From Jiangella aurantiaca (lineage in GTDB: Bacteria > Actinomycetota > Actinomycetes > Jiangellales > Jiangellaceae): 64,000 bases of DNA. The notes beneath the pieces were generated by a model. That model had not been told where the DNA came from. It made no database searches and was given only the letters and a program-made list of their open reading frames with translations. This document shows, piece by piece, positions 16,567-40,013 of this stretch. The position numbers and the translations under genes were made by a program. The stretch covers positions 1 through 64,000 of the forward strand of contig NZ_SMLB01000006.1 of assembly GCF_004349105.1 (NCBI RefSeq), in the 5' to 3' direction. The number at the start of each line of letters is the position of its first letter. Position 1 is the first letter of the stretch.

Positions 16567-18338
16567 CGTCGGCGGAGATCATGGCGCCCTGGGCGCCCGG
16601 CGCGGCGCGTGACGCCCGGTTGGTGCCGGTCGCGGTGGCCACCGCCCGGGTCGAGATCGCACAAGGGCTGGACGAGCACACCCGCCCGGCGGTCGTCGAG
16701 TCCGACGACGGAGGTGTGCTCACGGTGACCGTGCGGCGGTCCGCGCCCGGCCCGGCCCGCGTGCTGGTCCGCCTGGCCGCACCGGACGCCGTCGTGCTGT
16801 GGCGGCCGAGCAGCGACCAGGAGCGGGTGCAGCTGCCGCCGGCCTGGGAGGCGGCCCGCGACGTCGGCCCGTTCAGCGGGACGGCGCTGGGCAGCCTGGT
16901 CGGGCGGCACGACCGCACGCTGCTGACGTACGGCGCCGTCGCCGGCGACCATCCCGTGCGGGTGCGGGCCGGCATGGTGGAGGAGACGGCCGAGTTCATG
17001 CTCGACGTCGATGCGGACCTCGCGGACGGGGCGCCGCTCACGCTGCACCTGGACCTCACCGGCGCCGCGTTCGTCGACGCCGTCGCCGACATCGGCCGGC
17101 GGCTGGGACTGACCCGTCGCGCTGTCGCCCTGGAGAACGAGCAGCCGGTGCTGTGCACCTGGTACTCGTTCCACCAGGATCTCGACGCCGCCGCGCTCGA
17201 CCGCGAGCTCGAGCTGGCCGGCCGGCTGGGCTTCGGCACGCTGATCGTCGACGACGGCTGGCAGACCGCCGACGCCGAGCGCGGCTACGGTTCATGCGGC
17301 GACTGGCGGGTCGAGCCGGCCAAGGTGCCCGACGCGCGGGCTCTGGTCGAGCGGGCGCGGGCACTGGGGCTACGGACGATGTGGTGGATCGGGACCCCGT
17401 TCCTCGGCTACCGGTCGCAGGCCTACCGCGAGGCGGCCCTGGCGACGCTCTACGACGAGCCGGCCATGGAGGCCGCCGTCCTCGACCCGCGCTCGCCCCG
17501 GGCACGGCGCCACCTCGTCGGCCGCGTCACCGACCTCGTCCGGTCCTCCGGTGCGGACGGGCTGAAGCTGGACTTCCTGGAGCGGTTCGCGGCCGTGCCG
17601 CCGGCGCCGGGGCCCGCCGACGGCGACCGCCCGGACTCGTCGGCGGGAGCCCTGGCGCTACTCGCCGAGCTGGTCGACGCCGTTCACGCTGTGCGCCCTG
17701 AGGCGATGATCGAGTTCCGCGAGCCCTACGTCTCACCGGCCTCGATCCGCGCGGCCACGATGGTCAGGGTGGCCGACTGCCCGCTGAGCCCGGCGCAGAA
17801 CAGGCGCGGCATCGTCAGCATGCGGGCGGCCACGTCCGGGGTGGCCGTCCACAGTGACCCGATCATGTGGTCGCAGGTGGACAGCCCGGAGCGCATCGCC
17901 CACCAGCTGCTCAGCGCGCTGTTCGGGGTGCCGCAGGTGTCGGTGCGGCTGGCCGGGCAGTCCGCGGAAGCACTCGAGGTGCTGTCGCACTGGCTGACGT
18001 TCTGGCGCCGGCACGCGCCGGTCCTGTTGCACGGCTCCCTCTCCGTCCGGGGCGTCGCCGACGGCTTCACCACCGTCGAGGCGGCCGGCGGCGAGACTGT
18101 CGTCACCGTGCGCTACGCCGACGTCGTCGTGCCCGTCCCGGCCGGCGACTGGTCCGAGTGGCACCTCGCCAACGGCGGTGAGGACGCCGTCGTGGTGGCC
18201 GCTGGACCCGAGACGGCGTGCGACGTGGAACTCTATGACTGCCGCGGCCGGCTCGCCGCCCGAGAGTCCGGGACCGGGTTGACCCTGCGAGCACTCCCGA
18301 TACCGGCCGGCGGCCGAGGGCTGATCCGGCGGTTCTGA
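16563..18338 (+). CDS. GH36-like alpha-galactosidase/melibiase family enzyme
   Basis: 591 aa, cytoplasmic. N-terminal beta-sandwich region (1-190), then a (beta/alpha)8 barrel with WYSFHQDLD, LIVDDGWQ (about 226-233) and GADGLKLDFLE (about 331-341). The Asp in KLDF corresponds to the GH36 nucleophile motif KxD; an Asp in MVRVADCPLSP (about 400) is a candidate acid/base. The family hydrolyses alpha-galactosides and related alpha-glycosides. The ATGA overlap with the permease gene shows that it belongs to the LacI-controlled import operon, so it likely cleaves the imported oligosaccharide inside the cell. Confidence 0.78.
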   Translation: MTSAEIMAPWAPGAARDARLVPVAVATARVEIAQGLDEHTRPAVVESDDGGVLTVTVRRSAPGPARVLVRLAAPDAVVLWRPSSDQERVQLPPAWEAARDVGPFSGTALGSLVGRHDRTLLTYGAVAGDHPVRVRAGMVEETAEFMLDVDADLADGAPLTLHLDLTGAAFVDAVADIGRRLGLTRRAVALENEQPVLCTWYSFHQDLDAAALDRELELAGRLGFGTLIVDDGWQTADAERGYGSCGDWRVEPAKVPDARALVERARALGLRTMWWIGTPFLGYRSQAYREAALATLYDEPAMEAAVLDPRSPRARRHLVGRVTDLVRSSGADGLKLDFLERFAAVPPAPGPADGDRPDSSAGALALLAELVDAVHAVRPEAMIEFREPYVSPASIRAATMVRVADCPLSPAQNRRGIVSMRAATSGVAVHSDPIMWSQVDSPERIAHQLLSALFGVPQVSVRLAGQSAEALEVLSHWLTFWRRHAPVLLHGSLSVRGVADGFTTVEAAGGETVVTVRYADVVVPVPAGDWSEWHLANGGEDAVVVAAGPETACDVELYDCRGRLAARESGTGLTLRALPIPAGGRGLIRRF

Positions 18339-18362
18339 CCCGCCGCTCGGCGCGGAAGCCGT

Positions 18363-18383
18363 GCTCGGAGCCGGCGGCCGAGC
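18363..18383. terminator. Weak hairpin between convergent genes
   Basis: GCTCGG (18363-18368) can pair with CCGAGC (18378-18383) over a 9-nt GC-rich loop, in the 62-nt gap between the GH36-like gene (plus) and the sulfatase (minus). The stem is short, so this is only a candidate shared terminator. Confidence 0.3.
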
Positions 18384-18400
18384 CCGATGGCGGCGAGCGG

Positions 18401-19954
18401 TCATGTTCCTCGGCGCCGGCATCCGGCGGTTGTCAGGTCACGAGGTCGCGCACCGTTCTGGTACGTCGTCTCGTCCAACCCGGATTGAGTGGGGTCGTAG
18501 TCGACCTCGCCGACGTCGTACATCGTGGTCATCCAGTGATAGAAGTTGTCGCCCCGATCCCGGAGCACCTGGTAGAGCCGCTGCATCATCCGGAGGCGCA
18601 CATCGGTCATTTCCGGGTGGACGTAAACGTTGAGCAGTTCGTCGGGATCGGTGGCGAGGTCGTACAACTCGTTGGTCGAGTCAGGATTCACGACGAGCTT
18701 GAACCGGTCCTCGCGGAGCATGCGCTGCGGGTACGGGAAGTGGTGTCCGTGGAACTCGCAGACGATGTCGTCCGGCCAGGGGACGTCGCGTCCCTCGACG
18801 AACGGCACTAGGCTCCGTGAGTCGATCGCGGGCGACGTGTCGATCCCGGCGATGTCGAGGATCGTCGCTGTGCAGTCCAGCAGGCTCACGAACTCGGTGC
18901 GGACCTGGCCCTGCGGTGCCCCGGGGATCCGGATGATGCCTGGCGTGCGGTAGATGTCCTCGTACATCGCCGGGCCCTTGTCGTGTAGCCGGTGTGAGCC
19001 GGTGAACTCGCCGTGGTCGCTCGTGAAGAACACGGCGGTGTCGTCGACGAGCCCGAGCCGCTCCATGGCGTCCATGACCCGGCCGATCTGCTGGTCGATA
19101 AGCGTGACGTAGCCCCAGTAGACGGCGATGAGCTTGCGTGTCGCCTCGATCGGCATCGTGTCGAACGTCCAGTGGGCGCTGTAGTTGCGTTGCACCGGTG
19201 GTTTGCCGGCGAAGGTCTCGGCGATCGACCGGGGAAGTGGGACGACGTCCGGGTCGACCAGGTCGAAATAGGCGTCCGGGACGATGTACGGCAGGTGCGG
19301 TCCGAAGAAGCTGAGCTGGAGGAAGAACGGCGTGGCCTGGCGGGCGGCATCGTCGGCATACCGTTCGAGCAGTTCGATCGTCCGCGTCGCGAGGTAGTAC
19401 TCGAACGTCGCCGCGACCGGTTGATGGAGCCGGGCTGCCAGCAGATTGCCCGGCCCGCCATTCGGCAGCGTGCCACGAATGCGATCGCTGATCTCGTACG
19501 GCGGCAGGTCGTGCTCACGCAGATACTCGAGGTAGTCCTGGTTCGTGACCGGGTTGTGCCAACCCGGCAGGTCGGGGCCGTCGAACCCGAACACTGCGGC
19601 GTTCTTCTCGGTACCGGCATGCCATTTGCCCACGAGCCCGGTGTTGTATCCGTGGTCGCGCAACGCTTCGGCGAACGTGAACGTCCCGTCGGGCAGATCC
19701 TCCAGGTAGCCGACATTGCGTTCATGGTTGGCCAGTACCCGGTGCCGGAACGGCGCCTGCCCGGTCAGCAGGCTGGCCCTCGCCGGAGTGCAGATCGCCG
19801 TCGGGGTGTACCAGCGGTCGAACCGGGTGCCCGTGCGCGCGAGTTCGTCGATCGCCGGAGTGGTCGCGATCGGGTTGCCGTAGGCCCCGATCGTGTCGGC
19901 GCGGTGCTGGTCGGTCATCAGGAAGAGGACGTTCCTCGGTTTCACGTGCGTCAC
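18401..19954 (-). CDS. Sulfatase (formylglycine-dependent, alkaline phosphatase superfamily)
   Basis: 517 aa from GTG 19954. The N-terminus NVLFLMTDQHRADTIGAYGN carries the metal-binding Asp residues, and ICTPARASLLTG (Cys about 55) is the CxPxR motif whose Cys is converted to formylglycine. SDHGEFTGSHRLHDKG provides the second metal cluster. There is no signal peptide, so it should act in the cytosol on an imported sulfate ester. The start GTG overlaps the stop of the binding-protein gene (GTGA), coupling it to a NitT/TauT-type importer. No formylglycine-generating enzyme gene is in the window. Substrate unknown. Confidence 0.92.
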   Translation of the reverse strand: MTHVKPRNVLFLMTDQHRADTIGAYGNPIATTPAIDELARTGTRFDRWYTPTAICTPARASLLTGQAPFRHRVLANHERNVGYLEDLPDGTFTFAEALRDHGYNTGLVGKWHAGTEKNAAVFGFDGPDLPGWHNPVTNQDYLEYLREHDLPPYEISDRIRGTLPNGGPGNLLAARLHQPVAATFEYYLATRTIELLERYADDAARQATPFFLQLSFFGPHLPYIVPDAYFDLVDPDVVPLPRSIAETFAGKPPVQRNYSAHWTFDTMPIEATRKLIAVYWGYVTLIDQQIGRVMDAMERLGLVDDTAVFFTSDHGEFTGSHRLHDKGPAMYEDIYRTPGIIRIPGAPQGQVRTEFVSLLDCTATILDIAGIDTSPAIDSRSLVPFVEGRDVPWPDDIVCEFHGHHFPYPQRMLREDRFKLVVNPDSTNELYDLATDPDELLNVYVHPEMTDVRLRMMQRLYQVLRDRGDNFYHWMTTMYDVGEVDYDPTQSGLDETTYQNGARPRDLTTAGCRRRGT

Positions 19955-20973
19955 TCACCAGCCGCGAGGAAGAGATCCCCGGTGTAGAAGTCCGCCGGGT
20001 CGACCGGATTCTCCAGCTTCCCGGCTTCGACGAAGTAGTCGACCATGCCGGTCAGCCACGTGTCGATGGTGCCGTCCTCGGTGAGCTGGTCGATCTCCTC
20101 GAGGGTCAGAACCTGCACGTTGCTCGCGTCGCCCTCGACCTGTGCGACGTCCAGGTCGTTGAACTCGGCCGTCAGCTCGATGGCCTCGTCCATGTTCTCG
20201 GCTCGGTAGGTCATCGCGTCTCGGAGTGCCTTGAGCACTCGGTCGACCTTCTCGCCTTCGTTGGCGACGACGTCATTGCCGGCCACGAACGCCGTGGGAA
20301 ACGCGACGGTGTCCTCGAAGTCGGTGTTGTCCGCGAGTTCGACGAGGTCGGGTACCGACTGCTTGACGGTCGCCAGCGCCGGATACCAGAATCCGGCTCC
20401 GTCGACCTGCTTCGACGACAGGGCAGCGACGATGGCGGACGGCTCCATCGGCACGACCTCGATATCGTCCTTGGTCATGCCCGCCTCCTGAAGGGCGAGC
20501 GTCAGGATCATGTCGCCCGAGGTGCCCTCGGGCACGGCGACGATCTTGCCCCGGAGATCCTCGATCGATTCGTTGCCGGCCTGGGCGACGACGCGGTCGG
20601 CCTGGCCGAGGGTGTTCATCGCGACGATCTTGGCCTGGCCGGTTGCGGGCAACCAGAACGCGCCGGGCCCGATGTAGCCGAAGTCCAGGTCACCGGTGCC
20701 GAGCGCCTGGATCTGCAGCGGCCCGTTGGTGAACGACGACGTCGTCACGTCCAGTCCGTACTTCTCCCACAAGTCCTGGTCCTCGGCGATCGCCAGCAGA
20801 CTCGTCCCGTTGAAGTCCGGGATGAAGCCGAACTCGACCTCGATGACGTCCTCCGAGGAATCGTCCGCACCATTGCCATCCGTCGTGGCGTCGTCACCGG
20901 AGCAGGCGGTGGCGAGCAGGGCGACCGCCAGCGTGGCCGTGGCGGTGCCGGCCAACCTTGGGGTGATTCGCAT
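19951..20973 (-). CDS. ABC transporter substrate-binding lipoprotein, NitT/TauT (SsuA-like) type
   Basis: 340 aa from ATG 20973 (GAAGGGA 7 nt upstream). Signal peptide with lipobox ATACSG. The mature domain reads VEFGFIPDFNGTSLLAIAED, QIQALGTGDLDFGYIGPGAF and GKIVAVPEGTSGDMILTLAL, the SsuA/TauA/ThiY-like fold that binds sulfonates, taurine, nitrate or aromatic compounds. It is the external receptor for the permease and ATPase encoded upstream in the same operon. The linked sulfatase suggests a sulfate ester or sulfonate ligand (inference). Confidence 0.9.
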   Translation of the reverse strand: MRITPRLAGTATATLAVALLATACSGDDATTDGNGADDSSEDVIEVEFGFIPDFNGTSLLAIAEDQDLWEKYGLDVTTSSFTNGPLQIQALGTGDLDFGYIGPGAFWLPATGQAKIVAMNTLGQADRVVAQAGNESIEDLRGKIVAVPEGTSGDMILTLALQEAGMTKDDIEVVPMEPSAIVAALSSKQVDGAGFWYPALATVKQSVPDLVELADNTDFEDTVAFPTAFVAGNDVVANEGEKVDRVLKALRDAMTYRAENMDEAIELTAEFNDLDVAQVEGDASNVQVLTLEEIDQLTEDGTIDTWLTGMVDYFVEAGKLENPVDPADFYTGDLFLAAGE

Positions 20974-21002
20974 TGCAGTCCCTTCGTCGGGCTGGATCGT
21001 GC

Positions 21003-21812
21003 TCAGGACGACGCGTGACCGGCGGCAACACCGGGCGTCTGGTGGTACACCGAATGCCATACGCGGTTGCGCAGCTCACCGAATTCCGGGCTGAGCCGCA
21101 CCTCTTCCGTGCGGGGGAAGGGCAGGTCGACGTCGACGATGTCGTAGATGCGTCCTGGCCGGGCGGCCATCACCACGACGCGATTCGCGAGGAAGACGGC
21201 CTCGTCGACGTCGTGGGTGATGAACATGACGGTGCGCTTCTCGCGGCTCCAGGTGCCGAGGAGCTGCTCCTGGAGCGTTACCCGGGTGAGCGCGTCGAGC
21301 GCGCCGAACGGCTCGTCCATGAGCAGGATCGACGGATTCACCGCATAGGCCCGCGCGATCGCGCAGCGTTGTTTCATGCCGCCTGAGAGCATCTTCGGCA
21401 GGGCATCGGCGAACTGGTCGAGTCCGACCATGTGGATGAAGTACTCGGCACGCTGACGTCGCTCGGCCGCGCGCAGGCCCGCGACCTTCAGACCGAACTC
21501 GATGTTCTTGCGCACGGTGAGCCACGGGAACAGTGCGTACTGCTGGAAGATCACGCCGCGCTCAGGGCCGGGTCCCCGGACGTCCTTGCCGTCGACGACG
21601 GCGTGGCCCGACGTCGGGGTCTCCAGCCCGGCGAGGATGTTCATGAGAGTCGACTTGCCGCAGCCGGAAGGACCGACGACCGTCACGAACTCGTTGTCGG
21701 CGATGTCGAGCGACACGCTCTCCAGCGCCACGAACTCCGAGTTCTTCAGGTCGAAGGTCTTGCGGACGCGCCGCACCGAGATCTTCGCGGTGTCTGTCGG
21801 TGTCGTGGTCAT
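21003..21812 (-). CDS. ABC transporter ATP-binding protein (NitT/TauT family)
   Basis: 269 aa from ATG 21812, which overlaps the permease stop (ATGA). It has Walker [11 protein letters not shown]-loop FQQYALFPW, signature LSGGMKQR, Walker [13 protein letters not shown] and switch His FITHDVDEA, with the TauB/SsuB layout. It energises import through the permease encoded just upstream. The open frame runs much further upstream, but that is only the shadow of the permease gene. Confidence 0.93.
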
Positions 21813-22732
21813 CGGCGCTCCTGCCATCCGGTGAGCTTGGTGTCCGCGAAGAGCAGCAGCCGGTCCATCACCAGGCCGAGTACGCCGATGACGACGATGC
21901 CGACGAAGATCGTCGCAGTGTCGTAGTAGTACTGGGCCTGCTGCATGCGGTACCCGAGGCCGGCCTGCGCCGCGAGCAGCTCGGCGGCAACCAGGGTCGC
22001 CCAGGCAGAGCCGAGGCCGACCCGCATCCCGACGAGGATGAACGGCGTTGATGCAGGCACGACGACCCTGAGGAAGATCGTGCCGTTCCTCGCACCGAGC
22101 ACCCGCGCGGCGTTGATGAGCGTGCGATCCACGTTGACCACGCCCTGATAGGTCGAGATGACGCAGGCGAGGAAGGCGGCGAGGAAGATCACGAACACCT
22201 TCGGCAGCTCGCCGATGCCCATCAGGACCAGGACGACCGGAAGCAGGGCCAGCGGCGGGATGGTCCGGAAGAACTGGATCCACGGCTCGAACAGGCCGCG
22301 CGCGACGGTGTACCAGCCCATCAGGAACCCGACCGGGATGGCGACGGCCGAGCCGGCGATGAATCCGGCGAGGACGCGCGTCAGACTCGCGACGACGTCC
22401 TCCTGGAGGATCCCGTCGTTCCACAGTTCGATGGCCGTCTCGACAACCTCGGGCGGAGTCGGGAACTCGAAGCCGCTCACCGCGAGGGCCCACCAGATCG
22501 TGATGCCACCGACGATCGAGACGGCGTTGAGGATGCGCAGTCCGGTGCGTTTGCCTGGCCGGCGCTTGGTGGACCTCCCGCCCGGTGGCGAGGGTGGCTC
22601 CGCGGAGTCGGGCGGCTGCGTAGCGGTCGCGCGCGCGTCCTGTGCGGGTGGCTGGGACGCGGGATCGGCGGCCGAGGCCGCCGGGTTGCCGACGGCGCCG
22701 TTCCGCGACGTTCTAGGGGTCGAGGCTGTCAC
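21809..22732 (-). CDS. ABC transporter permease (NitT/TauT, SsuC-like)
   Basis: About 307 aa from GTG 22732 (AAGGAG 6 nt upstream; the start overlaps the ROK stop as GTGA). A ~65-residue Ala/Pro/Ser-rich cytoplasmic leader precedes six helices. The loop [20 protein letters not shown] with [18 protein letters not shown] is the BPD_transp_1 motif characteristic of SsuC/TauC permeases. It forms the membrane channel for the ATPase and binding protein that follow. Confidence 0.9.
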
Positions 22733-23961
22733 CACGTGCTCCTTTGCTGGGTGGCACCGTCGTCGGACTCCGCTGGTTCGGGATATCCGGCGAGGAGTGG
22801 GGACTGGTGGAAGATGGCGGCGAGCGCGCCCAGCGCGCCGTCGCTGTCGCGGAGCTGAGACCGCCGTACGACGAGGGGCTTCTCGGCTGGGATGGAGTAC
22901 AGCTCGTACCGCAGCGCTGCCGCCGCCTGTTCGACGATGACAGGGGCGACGTGGACCACCTCGCCGCCGATGACCACTTCGTTCGGATTCAGCGCCATCG
23001 CCGCGGCGCCGAGGACACGACCGAGGGTCGTGCCGACGTCGCGCAGCACGGCGTCGGCCACCGGGTCGCCCTTGGTGACGGCCGCGGCGAGATCGTCCAG
23101 GTTCTCGACGTCGACGCCGCGAGCACGACAGCCGGCGAGGATCGCCGGGACGGATGCGACCGTCTCCAGGCAGCCCCGTTTGCCGCACCGGCACTGCGAC
23201 CCGCCTGGGTTGGCGGTGACGTGCCCGAGTTCGCCGGCGTAGCCTCTGGCGCCAGTCACGAGTCGTCCCGCTACCACGAGTCCGCCGCCGACGCCGTCGG
23301 ACAGCCGCACGTAGACGAGGTCGCTGACGGGCTCGGGTTCGTAGATGGCCTCGGCGAGGGCGGCCAGCCGGGTGTTGTTGTCGGCGACGACGGGCGTGCC
23401 GAACCGCCCGGCGAAGGCCAGGTCGACGCCTTCCGGTGCGGCCTGCGGCCGCCACGTCACCCGCGGTCCGCGGGCACCGGCGCCGGTGTACGGCCCGGGA
23501 ACTCCGATCCCCACCGCCTGCAGGGCGCCGAGATGAACTCCGCGCGCCGTGCACAAGCCGTCGATCAGGTCGAAGGCCACCCCCAGGCGCACCGACCAGG
23601 GCGCGTCGTTGTGGTAGGGCTCGAGGCCGGCAGCGATGATTTCGTGCGCGGCGTCGGCAATCACCACGTGAACGCGTCGATGACCGAAGTCCACGCCCAG
23701 GAACTGTCCAGAGGCCGGATCCAGGGCCAGGCGCTCCGCTGGCCGGCCGCTTCCGCTCCGCGTGGCGGCGTCGGTGTCGGCGACGACGATCGCGCCACGC
23801 TGGAGGAGGCTGGCCGTGATCTCCGACAACGTCGTCCGTGAGAGTCCGACACGCTTGGACAGTTCGCCACGGCTCATGGCGCCGCCGGCACGGAGAGCGG
23901 CGAGAACGCGCTCCTCGTGGGTTCGGCGTACGAGCGCATGAGTCCCTGTCGTCATCGACAT
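22729..23961 (-). CDS. ROK family transcriptional regulator
   Basis: About 410 aa from ATG 23961 (an in-frame extension to 24081 is non-native). N-terminal winged helix ([20 protein letters not shown], then [15 protein letters not shown]), then a ROK sugar-kinase-like domain with [23 protein letters not shown], the zinc motif GYAGELGHV, and [14 protein letters not shown] regulators repress sugar genes and release DNA when a sugar or sugar phosphate binds. It is the first gene of its operon and its promoter contains two candidate operators, so self-repression is likely. A related operator precedes the glycosidase operon at 24-29 kb. Confidence 0.9.
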
Positions 23962-23973
23962 GCGGGCGACGCT

Positions 23974-24012
23974 AAATTCGCGGAATTTTTCCGTCAACAG
24001 TTCGACAGAAAA
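23974..24012 (-). promoter_or_regulatory. ROK operon promoter with two nested candidate operators
   Basis: On the minus strand: -35 TTGACG (24-nt region at 23992-23997), exactly 17-bp spacer, -10 TAGCGT, then ATG about 7 nt later, so the transcript is nearly leaderless. The spacer holds a perfect palindrome AAATTC-GCG-GAATTT (23974-23988). Overlapping the -35 is the inverted repeat TTTTCCGTC-N8-GACAGAAAA (23987-24012, one mismatch). The second element recurs at 29165-29190. Confidence 0.6.
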
Positions 24013-24106
24013 GCTGCCGACTTCTGTTCGTGCTACGTAAGAAAACGCGGGACGCCGACGGGGCGGAACACCAGGTGGCATCCCGCCCCGCCGGTCAGGT
24101 CTCTCC

Positions 24107-26461
24107 TTACGGCGCCCGGTTCGGTCGGTCCACGGCGTACGTCCGCACGTAGTCGAACTGGGCCGTGGCTCCGGCCGTGTTCATGGAGATGACGCCGATA
24201 CGCAGGTCGGCGCGGCGCGGCAGCGTCCAGACCCCGCCCCAGTCCCACTTCTCGCCGTCGGTGCTCGAGGCCATCCGGACCTCGTACTCGGCGTTCGCGA
24301 CATCCTCGCGGACGTACAGGCGGAACCACGTCGTCTCGGCGGGCGCGGCACCCCACATGGGCGAGGCGTACACGGCCGTCGGCGGCGTCGTCGTCGGGCG
24401 CGGGCCCTCGCGGGTGAACTCGACCTGGTCCGCCACGCTTCCCGGCCGGCGGGCGAGGCCCAGGTGCGAGTGCACGAGCTTGACGAACCGGTCGTCGTTC
24501 TCATAGAGGATGAGGCCGGCCTGCTGGTTGACGCGTGTGCCGTCGAAACGCAGCCTAGTCTCGACCATGTAGTCGCCGTCGGGCGCATCACGGAGCAGCA
24601 CGGAGGCCGTGTTGCCTGCCAGGTAGAGCTCAGCGGCCTGGGTCGGGAAGACGAACGCGCCGTCCTCCACGCGAGCGCCGGGGGCCGGTCCGCGGACCCA
24701 CGACCACGCCGAGCCCTCGGTTCCGGGTTCGAGAGCGCCGTCGAACTCGTCGGAGAAGTCGGCCAGCAGCCTGTCGGGCGCCGGCTCGTCGACGCGTTCC
24801 GTGACGGGGGAGGCCAGTCGCACCAGGCTGATGTTGTCGGCGTCGGCGACGCCGTCGGCGAACACGGCGACGGGCCCCGACGCCCGCGCCCCGGGAGGTG
24901 CGTCGACAGAGACGGTGGCCAGCGGCTCGAGGATGTTGTCGGCCGAGACGGCAGCGGTGAGCACGCCGCGGCGCCAGTCGAGCGTCATTACGTGCCAGGT
25001 GTCGTACCGGAACTCGTCCGGCAACGGTGCGGCGACCGTCTCGGTCCGCCGGTCCTTGGTGACCTCGACGCGCAGCTCACCCGCGGCGCGGTCGATCCAT
25101 GCCGCCGCGCGGCTCCGGCGCGCCACACCGATGGCGAGCCCGGCGGCGGAATCCGTGTCGACGAGCCGCAGATCGGCCTGGGCTCGCAGGTCTCCGGTGC
25201 CATTGGCGCGACTGGTCAGGGTCGCGTCGTCGAGCCGGATGTGCCGACCGGTGTCGAGGTCGTTCGCGAGGCTGACATCGCCGTCGGGCACCCAGTGGTC
25301 CAGCGATGCGTCGGCGAACGTCGTCGTGACGAACCCGGAGGTGACCGGGGCGGGCCGTGGGCCTTCGGACGGGCCGGCGCCGGCGTTGACCACGGGCCAC
25401 CCGTTGATCCAGTCCAGGCGGTCGATCATGAGCGGCCGCTTCGACAGCCGCAGCGTGCCGCCGCCAGGACCCGTGAACGGCGGGAAGTCGGCGTCGTCCC
25501 TGGGGATGGCGTGGTAGACCATCCAGTCCTGGCCCGCCAGGTCGGTGACCACGGAGTGGTGACCGGGCCCGGTGAACCGGTTTCCGTTGCTGGCCAGGAC
25601 GATGCCGCCCTTAGACGACTCGGCCATGAGGTCGATACCGCGGTCGTCGACGAACGGGCCGCGCGGGTTGTCCCCACGCCCGACCTTCACGGTGTATCCG
25701 CTGCTCTCGCCCTCGCAGCAGCCAGCGTCGGAGTACATCAGGTAGTAGTACTCGCCGTGCCGCACGACATAGCCACCCTCCATGCGGCGGCCCTGCGCGA
25801 CCTGAGTGACAGGGCCGATGAGTTCGGTGCCGTCGGCACTGAGCTCGGAGACGCAGATGAGGTCGTAGCTGCCCCAGTACAGATACAGCGTGCCGTCGTC
25901 ATCGGTGAACAGCGACTGGTCGATGTTGCCGGTGGGACAGCCCTCCACGGGAGCCGACGGCACGATGAGCTCGTCGTGGTGCGTCCACGGACCGGTCGGC
26001 GTGGGTGCCATGGCCAGGGCGAGCCCACCGGTCGAGAGCCCGTAGGTCAGTAGGTACTCCCCGTTCACGTAGCGGATGTCGGGCGCCCAGGCTCGGGAGC
26101 TCGACTGCCATGTCGCTGGGGTGGCGCCCGGGATCACGTCACCGACGTAGGTCCAGTCGGCCAAGTCCTCCGAGCGCAGGATCGGAAGGATGTGCTCGCC
26201 CTGCTCACCGATGCTGTTGAAGATCGGGTTCTGCGTGCCGTAGGCGTACCAGGCCCCGTCCTTGCCGCGGATCACGGCAGGGTCGGGGAAGGTGTCGACG
26301 ACTCCCGCGCTCACCGGGTTCGTGTACGTCGGCTCCCCGTGGGCGGGTGACGATGGACTCCGTTCCTGGTTCGACGCCTGCGCTGGCACTATGCCCGCAG
26401 AAACCAGGCAGGTCGCGGCCAGGGCCACAGCGGTCCGGGTTCGTGCTGATCGCCATCTCAT
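24107..26461 (-). CDS. Secreted GH43 family glycosidase with C-terminal concanavalin-like domain
   Basis: 784 aa with Sec signal peptide (ATCLVSAGIVPAQA). Residues ~45-370 form a five-bladed GH43 propeller: base motif DTFPDPAVI, middle Asp region CPTGNIDQSLF, acid motif RRMEGGYVVRHGEYYYLMYSD and GPGHHSVV. Two beta-sandwich regions follow (FADASLDHWV ... and FSDEFDGALEPGTEGSAWSW ... AGLILYENDDRFVKLVH), the latter resembling DUF1349/xylosidase C-terminal domains. Family activities include arabinanase, arabinofuranosidase and xylosidase. It is the last of three secreted enzymes in one minus-strand operon, 49 nt after its neighbour, with AAGGAG before the ATG. Confidence 0.85.
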   Translation of the reverse strand: MRWRSARTRTAVALAATCLVSAGIVPAQASNQERSPSSPAHGEPTYTNPVSAGVVDTFPDPAVIRGKDGAWYAYGTQNPIFNSIGEQGEHILPILRSEDLADWTYVGDVIPGATPATWQSSSRAWAPDIRYVNGEYLLTYGLSTGGLALAMAPTPTGPWTHHDELIVPSAPVEGCPTGNIDQSLFTDDDGTLYLYWGSYDLICVSELSADGTELIGPVTQVAQGRRMEGGYVVRHGEYYYLMYSDAGCCEGESSGYTVKVGRGDNPRGPFVDDRGIDLMAESSKGGIVLASNGNRFTGPGHHSVVTDLAGQDWMVYHAIPRDDADFPPFTGPGGGTLRLSKRPLMIDRLDWINGWPVVNAGAGPSEGPRPAPVTSGFVTTTFADASLDHWVPDGDVSLANDLDTGRHIRLDDATLTSRANGTGDLRAQADLRLVDTDSAAGLAIGVARRSRAAAWIDRAAGELRVEVTKDRRTETVAAPLPDEFRYDTWHVMTLDWRRGVLTAAVSADNILEPLATVSVDAPPGARASGPVAVFADGVADADNISLVRLASPVTERVDEPAPDRLLADFSDEFDGALEPGTEGSAWSWVRGPAPGARVEDGAFVFPTQAAELYLAGNTASVLLRDAPDGDYMVETRLRFDGTRVNQQAGLILYENDDRFVKLVHSHLGLARRPGSVADQVEFTREGPRPTTTPPTAVYASPMWGAAPAETTWFRLYVREDVANAEYEVRMASSTDGEKWDWGGVWTLPRRADLRIGVISMNTAGATAQFDYVRTYAVDRPNRAP

Positions 26462-26509
26462 GATGAACTCCTTCGCCGTTGAAGATCACCGCGCCGGTGA
26501 CCGGACCGG

Positions 26510-27694
26510 TCATTGAAGCCGACGGAAGTCATCGATCCAGGCGTAGCCCGGTGTCGCCAGCGCCTGGCCGCGGTGCTGGACCGTCAGCGGGGCGAACACG
26601 CTGTTGAGCAGCCAGGGTGCCTTCGTGGGGCTCCAGTCGGCCGTCATCGAGGGGATCTGTCGGAAGCCATACGTCGCCACGGCGAGCCGGCCCGTGCTCC
26701 TCAGCAGCCCCATAACGTCGCGCAGCAAGTGCTTCTTGGACTCGAACCATGGGCTCAGCGCGAGCAGGTCGTTCCACTTGTGAGAAGGGAAGGGGTCCTC
26801 GATCGCCTCGCCGATGACCTCCCACACCTGAGTCTCAGGGGCATAGCCGTAGCGCTGCGCAAAGGCGGCCGGGATTCGGTCGGTCATGTGCTGTTGCCAG
26901 TACCAGACCAGGGAGAACTCCGTCGCCAGGAAGGTCTGGTCGGGACGGAGCCGCGGAATGGTGTAGTCCAGGAAGTCCTGGATACGGGCCTCGTCGGGAA
27001 CGTGCGGATGGAGATCGACGCCCTCGATCTCAGGCGTGTCGCGCACGAAGGTGAGGTACCGTTCGACGGCGGCGGTGCGGTTCTGGCGTAGGTCCAGCCG
27101 GTTCAGTGCCCCCATGTATAGGTGGGTGGGGCAATCCGCGCCGCAGAGGTCGGCCCTGGCCTCGATGACGTGGCGCGCGACGGTCTCGTAGAACTGGTTG
27201 AGCCGCTCGTCCCGCTCGGAGGGCATGCTCTCGATGAACGGCTCGTTGCCGATGGTGACGATTTCGACCGTTCCGAGCACGAGCGGCAGCACGCGGTCCA
27301 GTCGCGCGAGCTCGGCGGCCATCGCCGCGCTGCCCGGCGAGGGGAAGGAGGTGCCGGCCTTGGGGAACTTCAGGCTCAGCACGGTCCGGAATCCACGGTC
27401 GTGGGCCTCGCGGATTCCCCGGAGGGTGGCACTCTGTGCCGGCGGAACCTCGTCGGCCTCAGGCATGGTGTAGAAGCCGCGCACCCAGCTGGCGCGCGCC
27501 TCTCGCAGCTCTCGATGATTCAGCTGGTCGAGGTTCTCGTTGTAGTTGGCGCCGAGCGCGCCCAGCGCGGGGAGCTGCTTGCTCTGGCCGCCATTCTCGC
27601 CGGCCGCCGGAGCGACGCCAGCGGGAGAGAGCGCGAGCGCCGCGGTGACCGCACCGGCGACGATGCTCCGGGCGATGAGGCGATGACGTGGCAC
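26510..27694 (-). CDS. Secreted clan GH-A-like glycosidase
   Basis: About 394 aa. GTG 27694 is chosen because GAGGAG lies 7 nt upstream; ATG 27709 is the alternative. Sec signal peptide (LIARSIVAGAVTAALALSPA). The (beta/alpha)8-barrel pattern includes ASWVRGFYTM, GFRTVLSLKFP, VEIVTIGNEPFIES (Asn-Glu-Pro, candidate acid/base on strand 4), VDLHPHVPDEA, and FLATEFSLVWYW (Glu, candidate nucleophile on strand 7). These are clan GH-A features, but I cannot assign the family (GH39/GH30/GH5-like are possible). It lies between the two GH43-type genes of the operon, so it probably attacks the same polysaccharide. Confidence 0.65.
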   Translation of the reverse strand: MPRHRLIARSIVAGAVTAALALSPAGVAPAAGENGGQSKQLPALGALGANYNENLDQLNHRELREARASWVRGFYTMPEADEVPPAQSATLRGIREAHDRGFRTVLSLKFPKAGTSFPSPGSAAMAAELARLDRVLPLVLGTVEIVTIGNEPFIESMPSERDERLNQFYETVARHVIEARADLCGADCPTHLYMGALNRLDLRQNRTAAVERYLTFVRDTPEIEGVDLHPHVPDEARIQDFLDYTIPRLRPDQTFLATEFSLVWYWQQHMTDRIPAAFAQRYGYAPETQVWEVIGEAIEDPFPSHKWNDLLALSPWFESKKHLLRDVMGLLRSTGRLAVATYGFRQIPSMTADWSPTKAPWLLNSVFAPLTVQHRGQALATPGYAWIDDFRRLQ

Positions 27695-27753
27695 GAGCTG
27701 GCTCCTCATCTGTGAGTGGGCGTCATTGCAGGACCGGCGGCCGCATGAAAGGG

Positions 27754-29094
27754 TCAACCGCTGATCGCGCGACCCCGGCGGCGCTGGACGTAGAGGCGGT
27801 TGTTCGTCGGGCCGGTCCACTCCATCCGCACGATGCCGGCGACGGCGGCTTCGTCGATGCGCGACGGATCGGACCAGTAGCCGAAGTTCGGATTCCGGAA
27901 GAAGGTCGCCCACACCCGGCCGCCGTGGTCCACGAAGAAGTTGTTGTGACCCGCGCCGACACCGGCGGTCCAGCGCTTCGAATACGGGCCTTCGAGGCGG
28001 TCCGAGACGGCGACGACCGCGTCGTACTGGTACTGCGTGCGGCCGGGGCCAGGCGGGTCGTATGCGTACCGCACACTGCCGCCGGGGCTGACCGACGTGC
28101 GGTCCCACGCAGCGTGCAGCAGGTAGTACTTCCCGCCGTGCCTGAACACGTACGCGCCTTCCAGATACGGCTCGGGGGCGTACGGCGCCTGCTGGAACCT
28201 CGGGAGGTTCGTCGTCGGGACGATGTCCTCCATGTCGTCCTGGAACTCCGCGTACAGGTCGTTGTGCAGCACGAGCCACGCGTCGTCGCCCTCGGTGTAG
28301 AGACTGCCGTCGATGTGGTGGTAGGCGCCGGGCTCGATGAACGCGGGCCCGCCGACGATCGGGTCACCGAAGGGCTTGTCGACGTTGCCCTCGATCAGCC
28401 GGTACGGTCCCTCGATCCCACCCTCGCTCACCAGCAGGAACGACCCGACCTTCCGCGAGTGGTCGCCCATGCACGCCGCGATGTACCAGGTGCCGCGGAA
28501 GTAGTGCACCTCCGGGGCCCAGACCTGACCGCGCTTGCCGAACCGGTCGTCGTACCAGTACTCCTGCCACGGTGCGACGACCGTGCGTCCGGGGCGGTTC
28601 TCCCCGACGAACTCCGGCGACCACACCTTGCCCCGCTCGGCGTCGGCGCGGATCCCGGTCGTGTCGACGAGCCGCCACGGTCCCCGCAGGGACGGGGCCA
28701 CCCACACGAAGATGCCGTCGTTCCACGGCGCCGCCCGGTCGAGCTCGGGCACGCGGCTGGTGCCCGTGGCGACGTACACGGGACGACCGTCGACGACGAA
28801 GCAATTGACATAGGTGTCCCGCATCCAGACCCGGCCGCTCGCCTCGTCACGGGGACGCAGCTCGAGCGACAGGATGAAGGAGTTGTCCTCACGTGGCCAC
28901 AGGTCCAGCCGAGTGTCCGCGAGGCCATAGGGGTCGAGTTCCGGCCAGTTCGACGGGTATGGCCCATTCGGCGAGGCCTGCGCCGGAGCCGACTGCGTGG
29001 CATGTGCAGGAAGCGCCACGGTTGCCAACGAGCCGGCCGCACCGACCAGAAAAGACCGTCGGTTCCAGGTGAATCCGTTGTGAAAGCCATTCAT
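27754..29094 (-). CDS. Tat-exported GH43-like glycosidase
   Basis: 446 aa. The N-terminus has a twin-arginine motif (NRRSFLVGAAGSLATVALPA), so it should be exported folded by the Tat system, unlike its Sec-exported operon partners. The body is a beta-propeller with VWAPEVHYFRGTWYIAACMG, EGGIEGPYRLIEG, HHIDGSLYTEGDDAWLVLHN and YLEGAYVFRHGGKYYLLHAAWD, the usual GH43 catalytic neighbourhoods (acid in LEGAYVF). First gene of the operon; AGGAG 7 nt before the ATG. Confidence 0.78.
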   Translation of the reverse strand: MNGFHNGFTWNRRSFLVGAAGSLATVALPAHATQSAPAQASPNGPYPSNWPELDPYGLADTRLDLWPREDNSFILSLELRPRDEASGRVWMRDTYVNCFVVDGRPVYVATGTSRVPELDRAAPWNDGIFVWVAPSLRGPWRLVDTTGIRADAERGKVWSPEFVGENRPGRTVVAPWQEYWYDDRFGKRGQVWAPEVHYFRGTWYIAACMGDHSRKVGSFLLVSEGGIEGPYRLIEGNVDKPFGDPIVGGPAFIEPGAYHHIDGSLYTEGDDAWLVLHNDLYAEFQDDMEDIVPTTNLPRFQQAPYAPEPYLEGAYVFRHGGKYYLLHAAWDRTSVSPGGSVRYAYDPPGPGRTQYQYDAVVAVSDRLEGPYSKRWTAGVGAGHNNFFVDHGGRVWATFFRNPNFGYWSDPSRIDEAAVAGIVRMEWTGPTNNRLYVQRRRGRAISG

Positions 29095-29164
29095 CGATCA
29101 CTCCTGCTTCGACGCGCAGCGCGCGGAAAGGGACGACGTCTCGACGAAGCTAGGCAGGCGAGGT

Positions 29165-29190
29165 TTTTCCGTCCAGACTCCGGCAGAAAG
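29165..29190 (-). promoter_or_regulatory. Promoter of the glycosidase operon with ROK-like operator
   Basis: TTTTCCGTC-N8-GGCAGAAAG (29165-29190) repeats the inverted element in front of the ROK gene with the same half-site spacing. On the minus strand the -35 is TGGACG, the spacer is 17 bp (GAAAAACC...), and the -10 is TAGCTT, the same architecture as the ROK promoter. The 5' UTR is about 45 nt. Confidence 0.55.
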
Positions 29191-29423
29191 ACTCCTGAAA
29201 TCGTCCGAAACCTGTGCGATATGGCGAGGTCGTTGGTGATCGACGTGACGATCGGCCGCTCGTGTGGCCTGCGTGTTCGAATGGCGGCGATCGTGGCGAT
29301 GGCGATGACGTCGGCGCGCACCATGACAGGGTCAGGCCGAACCTCCGATCGAGAGCGCCCCTGAGAGTGCGGCTCTACCCGAACTACTGGCATAGCCGAA
29401 CGAGCGGACGATCAGAGGCTTCG

Positions 29424-29467: not shown

Positions 29468-29791
29468 ATGAGCCGGTACCGGAAGTGGCGCGACACCGAC
29501 CACCTCGAGCGTGCTGTGGAGACCGCTGGTGGTCCGGAGATCTTCGACGACGAGGTTCGGCAGCTACACGACCAGGCTCGCGGCTGGCGGCTCGCAGAGC
29601 GACGCAAACGTCGAGGGCTGACGCAGGCCCAGGTCGCCGAGCAGATGGGCACCTCGGTGTCCAGGGTGTCGCAGATCGAGAAGGGCGAAGTCTCAACCCG
29701 AGACGTCATGGACCGCTAGGTCGCCGCCCGCGGCTGAACCCTCAACCTCGTCGCTGACTTCGGCGACGAGCAGCTGAACGTCGGCCTATAA
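29468..29791 (+). pseudogene. XRE/HigA-type antitoxin-like regulator with two in-frame stops
   Basis: The frame starts MSRYRKWRDTDHLERAVETA and contains a clear HTH_3 (RRGLTQAQVAEQMGTSVSRV, then SQIEKG). After EVSTRDVMDR comes TAG (29717-29719) where family members continue RYVAALGG. After VAARG comes TGA (29735-29737), then the expected tail TLNLVADFGDEQLNVGL and a TAA at 29789. Both nonsense codons are single-base events in an otherwise intact frame. A truncated 83-aa product would keep the DNA-binding domain. No toxin gene is recognisable next to it. Confidence 0.6.
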
Positions 29792-33548: not shown

Positions 33549-35048
33549 TCAACCGTCGCGCTGCCGCTGGTCAGTGGCCGCGCCGGGGAGGGGGTTCCAG
33601 TGGTGCTCGGGGACCTTCGGATCGTAGGCACCACGCGGGTGGGTGTCCTGCAGCCGCAGCGTCCACTGCAGCATCAGCCAGGTGAGTTTCTCCCGGAGCC
33701 GTGCGTGCCGCGGATCGTCGAATAGGTCGACGACCTCGGTGGGGTCGGCGCGCAGGTCGTAGAGCTCGCCCTCGCCGGTGCTGTGGACGACGAGCTTGTG
33801 GTCGCCGCGGCGCACCATGCGTGAGGCGCCGCTCTGGGTAACCGTGTTCAGCTCGTCGAAGGTCCGTCCCTTGTAGGGGAAGTGCAGAGGCGGCCGTTCG
33901 TCCGGCCCGTAGGTCAGGCCGCCGTACCCACGCTCGGCGTAGATCGACGAGAACACGTCCGACGGCGCCGGCTCGCCGCGCAGCAGCGGCTCCAGGCTGC
34001 GTCCCTGCACGCCGTCAGGGATGGGGACGCCGACGATCTCGCAAACGGTGGGCAGCACGTCGACGAGCGAGACGAGCTCGTCGCGGACCTGGCCGGACCG
34101 CACGCCGTCACCGTGGAAGATCATGGGGATGCGCATGAGGACCTCGGGCAGGCCGGCGCCCTTACGCTGCAGCCCGTACTCGCCGACGTAGTCGCCGTGG
34201 TCGCTGAGCAGCACCACCAGCAGGGGACCGTGGAGCGCGGACCGGGCATGGTCGACGAGCCGCCGGATCTGGTCGTCGATCAGCCGGAGCATGCCGCAGT
34301 AGTTCGCCCGGTAGCGCCGCCAGTGCTCGTCGTAGTCCGGGCGCTTCTCCTCGATCAGCCGCTGCAGCCAGAGCCAGTGGCCGCCCTTCGCGCGGGCCGC
34401 CTCGGCGCCGTGCGCGCGGGGCGGCACGTCCTCCTCGGCGAACATGCTGAAGTACGGCTCCGGCACCTGGTACGGGTTGTGCGGCTCGGGCATCGACACC
34501 CACAGGAACTGCGGCTCGTCCCCGGCGGAGTCCAGCGCGTCGAGGGCCCGGTCGACGATGCGGTGCGGCAGCTGGCACTCCAGCGGGAACGGCGTCGGCG
34601 CCATGGCGACGCCGTGGTCGAGCTCGTCGAGCCAGGCGTCGAAGGCCCGCTGCTCGTCCGTCTCGGCCGGCCCGGCGGTGTGGTAGTAGGGCCCCGCCCA
34701 GAAGTCGAAGTCGTCGGGGCCGCGGTGCATGTGCGGCTTGCCGGAGAAGCTGAGCCGGTAGCCCGCCGAGCGCAGCACGTCGAGCAGGTCGTGGTCGTAG
34801 TACGCGTGCTCGGCGTTGCTGTTCTGCGTCACCTTGTGGCTCGACGGGAACCGGCCGGTCAGCAGGCTGGTCCGCGCCGGAACACAGGCCGGCGAGCTGG
34901 TGTACGCGCCGGGGAAGCGCAGGCCGTCGCCGGCCAGGCCGTCGGTGTACGGCATGGTGTCCAGCTCGAACCCCGATCCGGCGGTGAACCCGGCGCGGTG
35001 CTGGTCGGTCATGATCAGCAGGACGTGCGGGCGTCGCGCGGCGGTCAC
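33549..35048 (-). CDS. Sulfatase (formylglycine-dependent), second copy
   Basis: 499 aa from GTG 35048, which overlaps the stop of the GH2 gene (GTGA). PHVLLIMTDQHRAGFTAGSG gives the metal ligands, SPACVPARTSLLTGRFPSSH carries CxPxR (Cys about 55), and VVLLSDHGDYVGEYGLQRKG gives the second metal site. No signal peptide, hence cytosolic. Only distantly similar to the sulfatase at 18401. Being last in a CUT1-import/GH2 operon suggests that it desulfates an imported sulfated oligosaccharide. Activation needs a formylglycine-generating enzyme encoded elsewhere. Confidence 0.92.
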   Translation of the reverse strand: MTAARRPHVLLIMTDQHRAGFTAGSGFELDTMPYTDGLAGDGLRFPGAYTSSPACVPARTSLLTGRFPSSHKVTQNSNAEHAYYDHDLLDVLRSAGYRLSFSGKPHMHRGPDDFDFWAGPYYHTAGPAETDEQRAFDAWLDELDHGVAMAPTPFPLECQLPHRIVDRALDALDSAGDEPQFLWVSMPEPHNPYQVPEPYFSMFAEEDVPPRAHGAEAARAKGGHWLWLQRLIEEKRPDYDEHWRRYRANYCGMLRLIDDQIRRLVDHARSALHGPLLVVLLSDHGDYVGEYGLQRKGAGLPEVLMRIPMIFHGDGVRSGQVRDELVSLVDVLPTVCEIVGVPIPDGVQGRSLEPLLRGEPAPSDVFSSIYAERGYGGLTYGPDERPPLHFPYKGRTFDELNTVTQSGASRMVRRGDHKLVVHSTGEGELYDLRADPTEVVDLFDDPRHARLREKLTWLMLQWTLRLQDTHPRGAYDPKVPEHHWNPLPGAATDQRQRDG

Positions 35049-36859
35049 GGCCGCTCTCCGCGGACGATCGCGGCGACGTCCTCGGCCGGGATCTTCGGCT
35101 TGCGGTTCTCGTCGCAGATGCCGTTGATCTCCTGCCGGGTGTCGGTCAGCTGGGTGTAGCAGAAGCCGGAGAGGTGGGGGGATTCGCGCACCGCGCTCAC
35201 CACCGCCTCGAACCGGCGGCGGAAGTCGTCCTCGTCCTCGGCGCCGGAGTAGCCCCACGCGCCGTCCACGGTGGCGCCGGTGGCGAAGGAGATGCCGCCG
35301 AACTCGGTGACCATGACAGGGCGCGGCTCGCCGTCGGCCGCCCCGGCCAGCAGCATACGGTGCCCCGTCGGCCCGATGCCGCCGAGCATCTCACGCAGCC
35401 GTGCCGGGTCGCTGTAGCGCTCGCGCAGCACGTCGCCCGAGGCCTCGTAGTCGTGGAAGGTCCACAGGTCGGAGTCGGTGTGCTCCCAGCCGTCGTTGGA
35501 GAGCACCGGCCGGGTCGGGTCCAGTGCGCGCGTCAGCCGGGCCAGCCCGCTGGCGAAGGCCTGCTGGGCGGGGTCGTGCGCGACCTGGTGGATGCCCCAC
35601 GACTCGTTGAGCGGTACCCAGGTCACCACGCACGGGTGCGAGCGGTCGCGGCGCACGAGGTCGGCCCACTCGTGCGTGAGCCGGCGCACCGCCGTCGCGT
35701 TGAACGCGTAGGCGGCCGCGGTCTCGCCCCAGATCATCAATCCGAGCCGGTCGCACCAGTACAGGAACCGGGGGTCCTCGACCTTCTGGTGGATGCGGGC
35801 GGCGTTGAAGCCCAGTGAGCGGATCAGCTCCACCTCCGCACGCAGCGCATCGAGGTCAGGTGCCGTGAAGTGCGACGTCGGCCAGTAGCCCTGCTCGAGC
35901 ACCGAGCGCATGACGACGGGCCGGTCGTTGAGCAGGAACCGGCCGTGCGCCAGTCCGACGCTGCGCAGGCCCAGGTAGGACGTCACGGTGTCGACGGCCG
36001 TGCCGGAGTCGGTGACGGTCACGACGGCGTCGACCAGCGCCGGGTGGTCCGGCGACCAGAGCAGCCGGCGCTGTCCCTGGCCGTTGGCCAGCGCCGGGAC
36101 GGTGATGACGGCGTCGGCCCGGTCGGCTTCGACGGTCAGGCGGTGACGGGCGACCGGTTCGCCGTCGTGGGTCAGCTCGACGTCCACCTCGACGGGACGG
36201 GCCGGCCGGCGGTTCAGCTCGAGCTCCAGCCGGACGGTGCCTACGGTGAGGTCGGTGCTCCACGCGAGGTCTGTGACGTGCAGCCGCGGCACGGCCTCGA
36301 GCCAGACCGTGCGCCAGATGCCGGTGGTGCGGTGGTACCAGATGGCGTGCGGCTCCGGGAGCCAGTCCTGCTTCCCGCGCGGGACGGTGAGGTCGTGCGG
36401 GTCGTCCTCGGCGCGGATGACCACGACGTGCGTCGCGCTCCCGGCGTCGACGGCATGCGTGACCGGCACTGTGAACGGGGTCTGGCCGCCCTCGTGCCGG
36501 CCGACGTGCACGCCGTCGAACCATACGTCCGCCGTGTGGTCCACGGCACCGAAGTGCAGCAGCAGCGTGTCACCCTGCCGCCCGAGGCCGGAAGCGGCCA
36601 GGTCGTCCGCCGTCACCTCGATGCGGTACCAGACGACGGGGTGGTAGCCGGTGTCGCCGATGCCCGAGGCGGGGGACTCCGGTGCGAACGGCAGCCGGAT
36701 CCGTCGCGTGAACACCTCCGCGCGGTCGTGCCAGTGCTCGTCGAGCCCCTCGTCGTGGTCGTCGTAGGCGAAGCCGCACTCGCGATCCAGGGCCTGGTGG
36801 TCCGGGCGGAGGAGCTGAGGACGGGGATGGGTCCCGTCTTGCGCGCCGGCGGAGATCAT
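35045..36859 (-). CDS. Cytoplasmic GH2 family glycosidase
   Basis: 604 aa, no signal peptide. Jelly-roll N-domain (TRRIRLPFAPESPASGIGDT, VDHTADVWFDGVHVGRHEGG), immunoglobulin-like domain, then a TIM barrel with SVLEQGYWPTSHFTAPD, IRSLGFNAARIHQKVEDPRF, acid/base WVPLNESWG and nucleophile MVTEFGGISF. These are the standard GH2 residues, for beta-galactosidase, glucuronidase or mannosidase activity. It follows the permease gene by 19 nt with GGAAGGA before the ATG, and it is translationally coupled to the sulfatase. Confidence 0.9.
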   Translation of the reverse strand: MISAGAQDGTHPRPQLLRPDHQALDRECGFAYDDHDEGLDEHWHDRAEVFTRRIRLPFAPESPASGIGDTGYHPVVWYRIEVTADDLAASGLGRQGDTLLLHFGAVDHTADVWFDGVHVGRHEGGQTPFTVPVTHAVDAGSATHVVVIRAEDDPHDLTVPRGKQDWLPEPHAIWYHRTTGIWRTVWLEAVPRLHVTDLAWSTDLTVGTVRLELELNRRPARPVEVDVELTHDGEPVARHRLTVEADRADAVITVPALANGQGQRRLLWSPDHPALVDAVVTVTDSGTAVDTVTSYLGLRSVGLAHGRFLLNDRPVVMRSVLEQGYWPTSHFTAPDLDALRAEVELIRSLGFNAARIHQKVEDPRFLYWCDRLGLMIWGETAAAYAFNATAVRRLTHEWADLVRRDRSHPCVVTWVPLNESWGIHQVAHDPAQQAFASGLARLTRALDPTRPVLSNDGWEHTDSDLWTFHDYEASGDVLRERYSDPARLREMLGGIGPTGHRMLLAGAADGEPRPVMVTEFGGISFATGATVDGAWGYSGAEDEDDFRRRFEAVVSAVRESPHLSGFCYTQLTDTRQEINGICDENRKPKIPAEDVAAIVRGERP

Positions 36860-36878
36860 GGGTCCTTCCTGGGACAGG

Positions 36879-39965: not shown

Positions 39966-40013
39966 GTGCATCACTCCTGATCTCGTCGTCGAACTCGGGG
40001 ATGGGGCTCGCGG

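Follow-up and report, generated by a model that had tools for sequence, protein, structure and literature searches.

Among described regulators of the ROK family, the following come closest to the locus reported here. CsnR of Streptomyces lividans represses a secreted chitosanase through a palindromic operator at the promoter (PMC3048496; likened here in regulator family, type of target, and kind of operator), CysR and SsuR of Corynebacterium glutamicum are actinobacterial ROK proteins with a T-rich/A-rich inverted repeat and leaderless regulator transcripts (PMC2580772), and RokB of Streptomyces coelicolor binds its own promoter, with the PnovH site TTTGTTC-N11-GAACAAA (PMC4856308). T-rich/A-rich inverted repeats have been published as the binding sites of ROK proteins, and those of Mlc and NagC carry a GC-rich core (PMC2580772). 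We analyzed a 64,000-nucleotide stretch of Jiangella aurantiaca (contig NZ_SMLB01000006.1, positions 1 to 64,000; hereafter, the window), in which a ROK gene heads an operon for an ATP-binding cassette (ABC) importer and a sulfatase, and similar inverted repeats stand upstream of this operon and of an operon for secreted glycosidases. Judged from sequence, we hold it probable, at about 0.85, that both repeats are operators of the ROK protein and couple the secreted glycosidase operon to the importer/sulfatase operon.

The site pair and its conservation

Both repeats are located upstream of minus-strand genes, and the right half-site of each contains the -35 hexamer of the promoter. In plus-strand letters, the repeat of the ROK promoter (operator 1, 23987-24012) is TTTTCCGTC-AACAGTTC-GACAGAAAA, and that of the promoter of GH43b, the first glycosidase gene (operator 2, 29165-29190), is TTTTCCGTC-CAGACTCC-GGCAGAAAG. 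The equal half-sites and 8-bp spacing described by the first-pass annotation are borne out at both positions, as are the overlap with the -35, the 17-bp promoter spacing, and the TAGC(G/T)T -10, with a weaker -35 (TGGACG) at the second site. A generic sigma-70 scan picked up neither promoter in the window, so the -35 and -10 assignment rests on sequence and conservation. With only 7 bp between its -10 and the ROK ATG, the ROK transcript is probably leaderless; many relatives have the start of the site 51 bp ahead of the ROK match. Pattern matches with up to 3 mismatches in the window were limited to the 2 operators (dinucleotide shuffles, mean 0.03). Recent duplication of one promoter was considered and rejected: in an alignment of ~130 bp, identical runs of 6 and 10 bases fall within the site and none longer than 4 bases outside it, so no such duplication is apparent.

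The whole genome (6,620,775 bases) was scanned with a symmetrized pattern written from the 2 window sites, with the reversed pattern as control. Only the ROK and GH43b promoter sites matched with at most 1 mismatch; 4 further places matched with 3 mismatches (reversed control, 2), and a matrix of ROK promoters, described below, scored these at 5.9 or less. The genome has 24 ROK protein matches, and the motif was identified at just 1 of these and at the GH43b gene. The full 28-base consensus, allowing 3 mismatches, recovered the ROK promoter only and missed the known GH43b site, leaving room for a weaker third target that may lie elsewhere in the genome. Across 393 genomes of the class, the strict form of the motif matched 3 times, in each case at an ortholog of the window ROK in the window's family. 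A 23-base form (up to 3 mismatches) matched 8 times (reversed control, 1), at 5 ROK genes (56-100% identity over the aligned stretch), the window GH43b gene, 1 decayed ROK remnant (L163), and 1 apparent coding region (L160). In the scan that the first-pass annotation had proposed, the repeat thus proved rare, with 2 sites of at most 1 mismatch in 6.62 Mb, and in the 393 genomes it was not common upstream of unrelated genes. On the genome scan with its reversed control and the class genomes, we reject a chance origin of the pair. In L163, the operator still stands upstream of the decayed ROK gene.

We scanned bacterial and archaeal species genomes and found 89 ROK relatives, the best 80 of which (47-77% identity) were analyzed; these span ~30 actinobacterial genera, among them Microbacterium, Agromyces, Streptomyces, Kribbella, Actinomadura, and Actinoplanes. 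In 79 of the 80, the site was identified with at most 4 mismatches between positions -200 and +30 relative to the ROK match; the reversed pattern, allowed 5 mismatches, was identified near the ROK start in none. The single exception, L139, has neither the operon nor the site. A conservation profile was drawn from one sequence per genus (31 labels, including 2 metagenome-assembled genome labels; L139 was dropped, and the site copy nearest the ROK start was chosen by hand in L110). In these 31 genus representatives, the site forms a conserved island, TTTCTGTCGGANTGTTGACGGAAAAAT, between variable flanks, and 23 of them have a TAnnnT box, with all 3 fixed bases, 17 or 18 bp behind TTGACG. The order ROK, permease, ATPase, binding protein, sulfatase is kept in 77 of the 80 loci; the sulfatase of L138, L140, and L141 is of a distant type (27-29% identical).

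To locate sites at other genes, a matrix was built from ROK promoters alone, leaving out the window and all glycosidase promoters and including Jiangella asiatica; the cut-off of 8 was our choice, and the 80 loci comprise 1,558,606 bases. The matrix found both window sites (scores in Table 1), and in the rest of the 64 kb, including a second sulfatase/GH2 cluster, there was no match of 8 or more. Outside ROK promoters, the 80 loci yielded 39 matches. Of these, 34, in 33 loci, precede GH43 genes, sharing their strand and oriented toward them; the 600-bp stretches upstream of glycoside hydrolase (GH) genes make up ~1.4% of strand positions. Two more point at genes for a secreted GH20 hexosaminidase that takes the place of GH43 (L140 6981-7008 and L141 7115-7142, both with the distant type of sulfatase), and 1 lies ~90 bp ahead of the probable initiator Met of a secreted GH51-like protein (L133; Pfam scores around cut-off). 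The remaining 2 lie on the opposite strand of the ROK site (L134) and where no glycosidase gene follows (L107). At a score of at least 12, the true matrix gave 30 matches outside ROK promoters, and 3 column-shuffled matrices gave 0, 3, and 2.

A GH43 or GHA homolog was present in 58 of the 80 loci, and 53 of these had a link to the regulator, whether by an own site (33 loci, 13 of them scoring at least 19), by membership in the ROK operon (13), or by divergent orientation sharing the ROK promoter region (7); 5 had none. Among the 13 operon members, 7 are of the Actinoplanes type, in which genes for a second sulfatase and the formylglycine-generating enzyme (FGE) bridge to GH43a on the same strand.

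Close relatives show the pair in altered gene orders. Among 22 family genomes, own included, 2 others (G008 and G001) hold a ROK with 63-64% identity. G008, from the window's genus, has the ROK-promoter site with 1 mismatch, and no site with at most 1 mismatch was found in the 22 genomes beyond this one and the window's 2. In G001, from another genus, the ROK-promoter site is weaker (matrix 23.7), and a second site (39.0) precedes a secreted GH43 gene with 53% identity to GH43a. The gene directly after ROK, with no ABC genes between, encodes a sulfatase with 77% identity to that of the window. Since this GH43 gene is on the opposite strand, gene order has changed and the operator pair has been retained. 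A scan of G001 with the 23-base pattern at up to 2 mismatches was too loose (30 and 26 matches vs 16 and 18 in the control), and the second site was credited by its matrix score and gene. In Jiangella asiatica (L133), ROK lacks the usual ABC/sulfatase operon in the available stretch and keeps the site; a second site (7528-7555, matrix 24.7) stands just before the GH51-like gene.

The first-pass annotation had proposed that ROK controls both operons, and this proposal gains support from conservation of the site with the ROK lineage and from its recurrence at GH43 promoters in other genera and gene orders. As many soil actinobacteria keep this site next to the same regulator gene, the glycosidase set and the import/desulfation operon very probably respond together.

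The regulator and the two operons

The window protein has the makeup expected of a ROK transcriptional regulator, with a ROK domain (PF00480, 159.2 bits) and a winged helix-turn-helix (HTH_24, 23.7 bits), both above cut-off, the CxCGxxGCxE motif, and no kinase Asp; its best solved match by sequence is the ROK regulator 1z05. Cys258, Cys260, and Cys265 of CxCGxxGCxE, which we take to be the zinc motif, are kept in all 80 relatives, as are E245 and H248 among the residues aligned with the sugar site (E267 in 79 of 80). The column aligned with the kinase Asp, presumably the catalytic position, is Asn in 76 of 80. In the helix-turn-helix region, G40, S42, R43, S47, and I49 are identical in all 80. 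ROK is the likely binder of both operators because the site travels with the ROK gene, these helix-turn-helix residues are kept, and published ROK sites are repeats of the same T-rich/A-rich kind. The retained sugar-site and zinc residues, with Asn in the kinase column, favor a sugar ligand and no kinase activity, and the inducer is probably a sugar. Repression appears likelier than activation, as the operator spans a near-consensus -35. Three ROK paralog loci (L028, L010, and L029; 42-44% identity) had no site with up to 5 mismatches. One of these paralogs (44% identity; L041) carries, ~50 bp upstream (10998-11025), an AT-rich site that resembles the operator but differs from it, with a weak matrix score of 19.2.

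In the proposed mechanism, ROK would bind the T-rich/A-rich inverted repeat over the -35 of the operon to which it belongs (ROK, permease, ATPase, SsuA-type binding protein, and sulfatase) and, likewise, the operator at the -35 of the secreted glycosidase operon (GH43b, GHA, and GH43a). It would most likely act as a repressor, with RNA polymerase blocked at the -35 box, and would leave the DNA when a sugar ligand occupies the conserved ROK sugar site. The cell would then produce its secreted glycosidases at the same time as an importer of small sulfated products and the cytoplasmic sulfatase, with material presumably flowing from glycosidase to importer to sulfatase.

Gene assignments are given in Table 1. 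PF04616 (GH43) was identified in 2 proteins (177.3 and 67.5 bits; cut-off 32.2), with signal sequences recognized by eye only. GHA had no Pfam match and no informative solved relative, and its low-confidence model (pLDDT 62) gave weak TIM-barrel matches, with glycosidases first and some matches that were not glycosidases. The best solved match of the sulfatase by sequence is an exo-2S-iota carrageenan sulfatase. C-x-P-[A/S]-R was found in 73 of 78 related sulfatase matches and in none of the other 5. FGE is encoded by 1 gene in the own genome, on another contig, and was detected by tblastn in 48 of 82 stretches (the 80 loci, L038, and L039). With its C-x-P-x-R motif and a maturation enzyme gene in the genome, the window enzyme is assigned to the type I (formylglycine) sulfatases; the binding protein is SsuA-type according to the subfamily model. 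We read the sulfatase as cytoplasmic and the importer as a sulfonate-type ABC system.

Several neighboring features were also observed. In related loci, such as L132-L151, a second sulfatase and an FGE gene often come next after the first sulfatase on the same strand. The window itself has a second sulfatase in a minus-strand stretch (33549-44456) that also contains 2 GH2-type genes and the binding protein of a sugar ABC system, and there the ROK operator is absent; relatives of this sulfatase occur near GH43b in L111 and L126. Beside the GH43b promoter, an open reading frame with an XRE-type helix-turn-helix (by eye; 29468-29719, plus strand) stops after 83 residues and looks like a truncated antitoxin-like gene.

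Table 1. Features of the 2 operons and their promoters in the window
Feature	Position	Strand	Basis
Operator 1, ROK promoter	23987..24012	-	minus-strand reading TTTTCTGTC-GAACTGTT-GACGGAAAA (half-site-N8-half-site); matrix 50.7 of maximum 54.9
Operator 2, GH43b promoter	29165..29190	-	minus-strand reading CTTTCTGCC-GGAGTCTG-GACGGAAAA (half-site-N8-half-site); matrix 36.4 of maximum 54.9
ROK promoter -35, TTGACG, in right half of operator 1	23992..23997	-	sequence; TTGAC recurs in relatives
ROK promoter -10, TAGCGT	23969..23974	-	17 bp from -35; 7 bp to ROK ATG; TAnnnT recurs in relatives
GH43b promoter -35, TGGACG (weaker), in right half of operator 2	29170..29175	-	sequence
GH43b promoter -10, TAGCTT	29147..29152	-	17 bp from -35
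GH43b, GH43 family, secreted (by eye), first gene of glycosidase operon	27754..29094	-	profile match; signal sequence by eye
GHA, secreted (by eye)	26510..27709	-	no Pfam match; low-confidence model
GH43a, GH43 and GH43_C2, secreted (by eye)	24107..26461	-	profile matches
ROK-family regulator, N-terminal winged helix-turn-helix, ROK domain, CxCGxxGCxE motif	22729..23961	-	profiles, alignment
ABC permease, BPD_transp_1	21809..22732	-	closest NCBIfam models are SaoP and TauC, each under its cut-off
ABC ATP-binding protein	21003..21812	-	profile matches
Solute-binding protein, lipoprotein-like (by eye), SsuA_fam	19951..20973	-	NCBIfam 209.8 bits vs cut-off 163.5
Type I sulfatase, CTPAR motif, signal peptide not evident (by eye)	18401..19954	-	profile, motif

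Alternative explanations

We weighed 4 other explanations. It is possible, though rather unlikely, that a single transcript starting at the GH43b promoter covers all 8 genes, with the ROK promoter internal and one operator sufficient. The minus-strand order is GH43b, GHA, GH43a, ROK, permease, ATPase, SsuA-type binding protein, and sulfatase, all on the same strand, with gaps of 44, 48, and 145 bp up to the ROK ATG and then 4-base overlaps or 29 bp. The sole terminator-like match in 18300-29400 lies within GH43a, with none in the GH43a-ROK gap. However, a single transcript leaves unexplained the sites at GH43 genes that are divergent from ROK, or kilobases away from it, in other genera. It is compatible with ROK control through both operators and does not conflict with it: with 8 genes on one strand and 145 bp from GH43a to the ROK ATG, transcription from the GH43b promoter may run on into the ROK operon, a point that amends the first-pass annotation.

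Less probable still is that ROK responds to sulfur status, in the manner of CysR and SsuR, and activates both operons, the glycosidases merely freeing sulfated groups. The SsuA_fam assignment of the importer's binding protein agrees with such a role, and CysR and SsuR govern sulfate and sulfonate genes and have leaderless transcripts, as predicted for the window ROK (PMC2580772). CysR binds DNA with O-acetylserine or O-acetylhomoserine (PMC2580772). Yet the window protein keeps the sugar-site-aligned residues and zinc cysteines, whereas CysR is at best a distant ROK member (PMC2580772); further, the -35 of the ROK promoter is near consensus, and the regulon regularly includes secreted glycosidases.

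That another regulator binds the site and counts the ROK gene among its targets is very unlikely. ROK genes can be regulated by others, and cysR and ssuR are McbR targets (PMC2580772), but the site follows the ROK lineage through genera and gene orders, including the operon-less ROK of Jiangella asiatica, and T-rich/A-rich inverted repeats are the sites of other ROK proteins (PMC2580772). Similarity owing to a common housekeeping promoter element (a TTGAC-type -35 and an A-tract) plus chance would fit the -35 hexamer in both right half-sites and the TAnnnT box in 23 of 31 genus representatives, but is scarcely credible, as the left half TTTCTGTCGGA, upstream of the -35, is strongly conserved too, and a general element should be common, whereas the 393 genomes gave 8 matches to the 23-base form, of which 6 lie at ROK genes (1 a decayed remnant).

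Several observations weigh against control of both operons by ROK as a repressor. The window GH43b site has G at the second -35 base and so lacks the T that is invariant in the ROK promoters of the 31 genus representatives. The related loci lack phylogenetic independence. With 8 as the cut-off in use, the shuffled-matrix control covers scores of 12 and above. Of the 33 own sites, 20 are weak (8.3-16.3; 7 below 12), all in Streptomyces (18 of its 20), Kitasatospora, and Actinacidiphila. The 7 shared-promoter loci are linked by position only, with best scores from the GH side of -5.7 to 7.0, and 5 loci (4 Kribbella and 1 Phycicoccus) have a convergent GH gene and no site. For 19 of the 22 loci that lack a GH43 or GHA homolog, no site was seen at any other glycosidase in the stretches examined. 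An activator may also bind at this position, and ROK activators of sulfur genes exist in C. glutamicum (PMC2580772). With strong own sites on one side and the weak ones confined to the 3 genera named, the case for joint control by ROK appears strongest for Microbacteriaceae, the other strong-site genera, and Jiangella.

Relation to described systems

We found no description of this regulon in the literature searched, a search that subscription papers mostly lay beyond. Control of both operons by ROK would make of a look-alike sequence pair a regulon that can be tested, whose operator spans nearly 30 bases and whose gene set is defined in many actinobacterial genera, and would tie glycan breakdown to sulfate-ester import under a single carbohydrate-type regulator. 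The identity of the inducer would reveal the sulfated glycan and the function of a widespread importer-sulfatase operon. More tentatively, and with somewhat less than even odds, actinobacteria may harbor a modular regulon for sulfated-glycan salvage, in which one ROK operator is placed before a secreted glycosidase suited to the local glycan (GH43, GH51-like, or GH20), in most cases together with a sulfonate-type importer repurposed for sulfated sugars and an intracellular sulfatase. If so, desulfation would follow uptake and not take place outside the cell.

The Pseudomonas ats arylsulfate-ester operon combines an ABC importer with a cytoplasmic sulfatase, as in the window, but is under sulfate-starvation control and is not known to include secreted glycosidases. 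The sulfated-glycan loci of Bacteroidetes differ from the window in transport type and regulators. Like the window, they bring together glycosidases and sulfatases on one sulfated glycan, as in Bacteroides plebeius with sulfated arabinogalactan proteins (PMC8406133). Among the ROK systems, no sulfatase or sulfonate-type importer is reported with CsnR in the available text (PMC3048496). CysR and SsuR use a TGAAtnnAAt region, are mostly activators, and have no glycosidases reported in the portion of the source consulted (PMC2580772); their half-site is not matched in the 31 genus representatives, where the conserved bases are TTTCTGTC and GACGGAAA. RokB differs from the window in half-sites and spacing, and its regulon is possibly tied to amino acid metabolism (PMC4856308).

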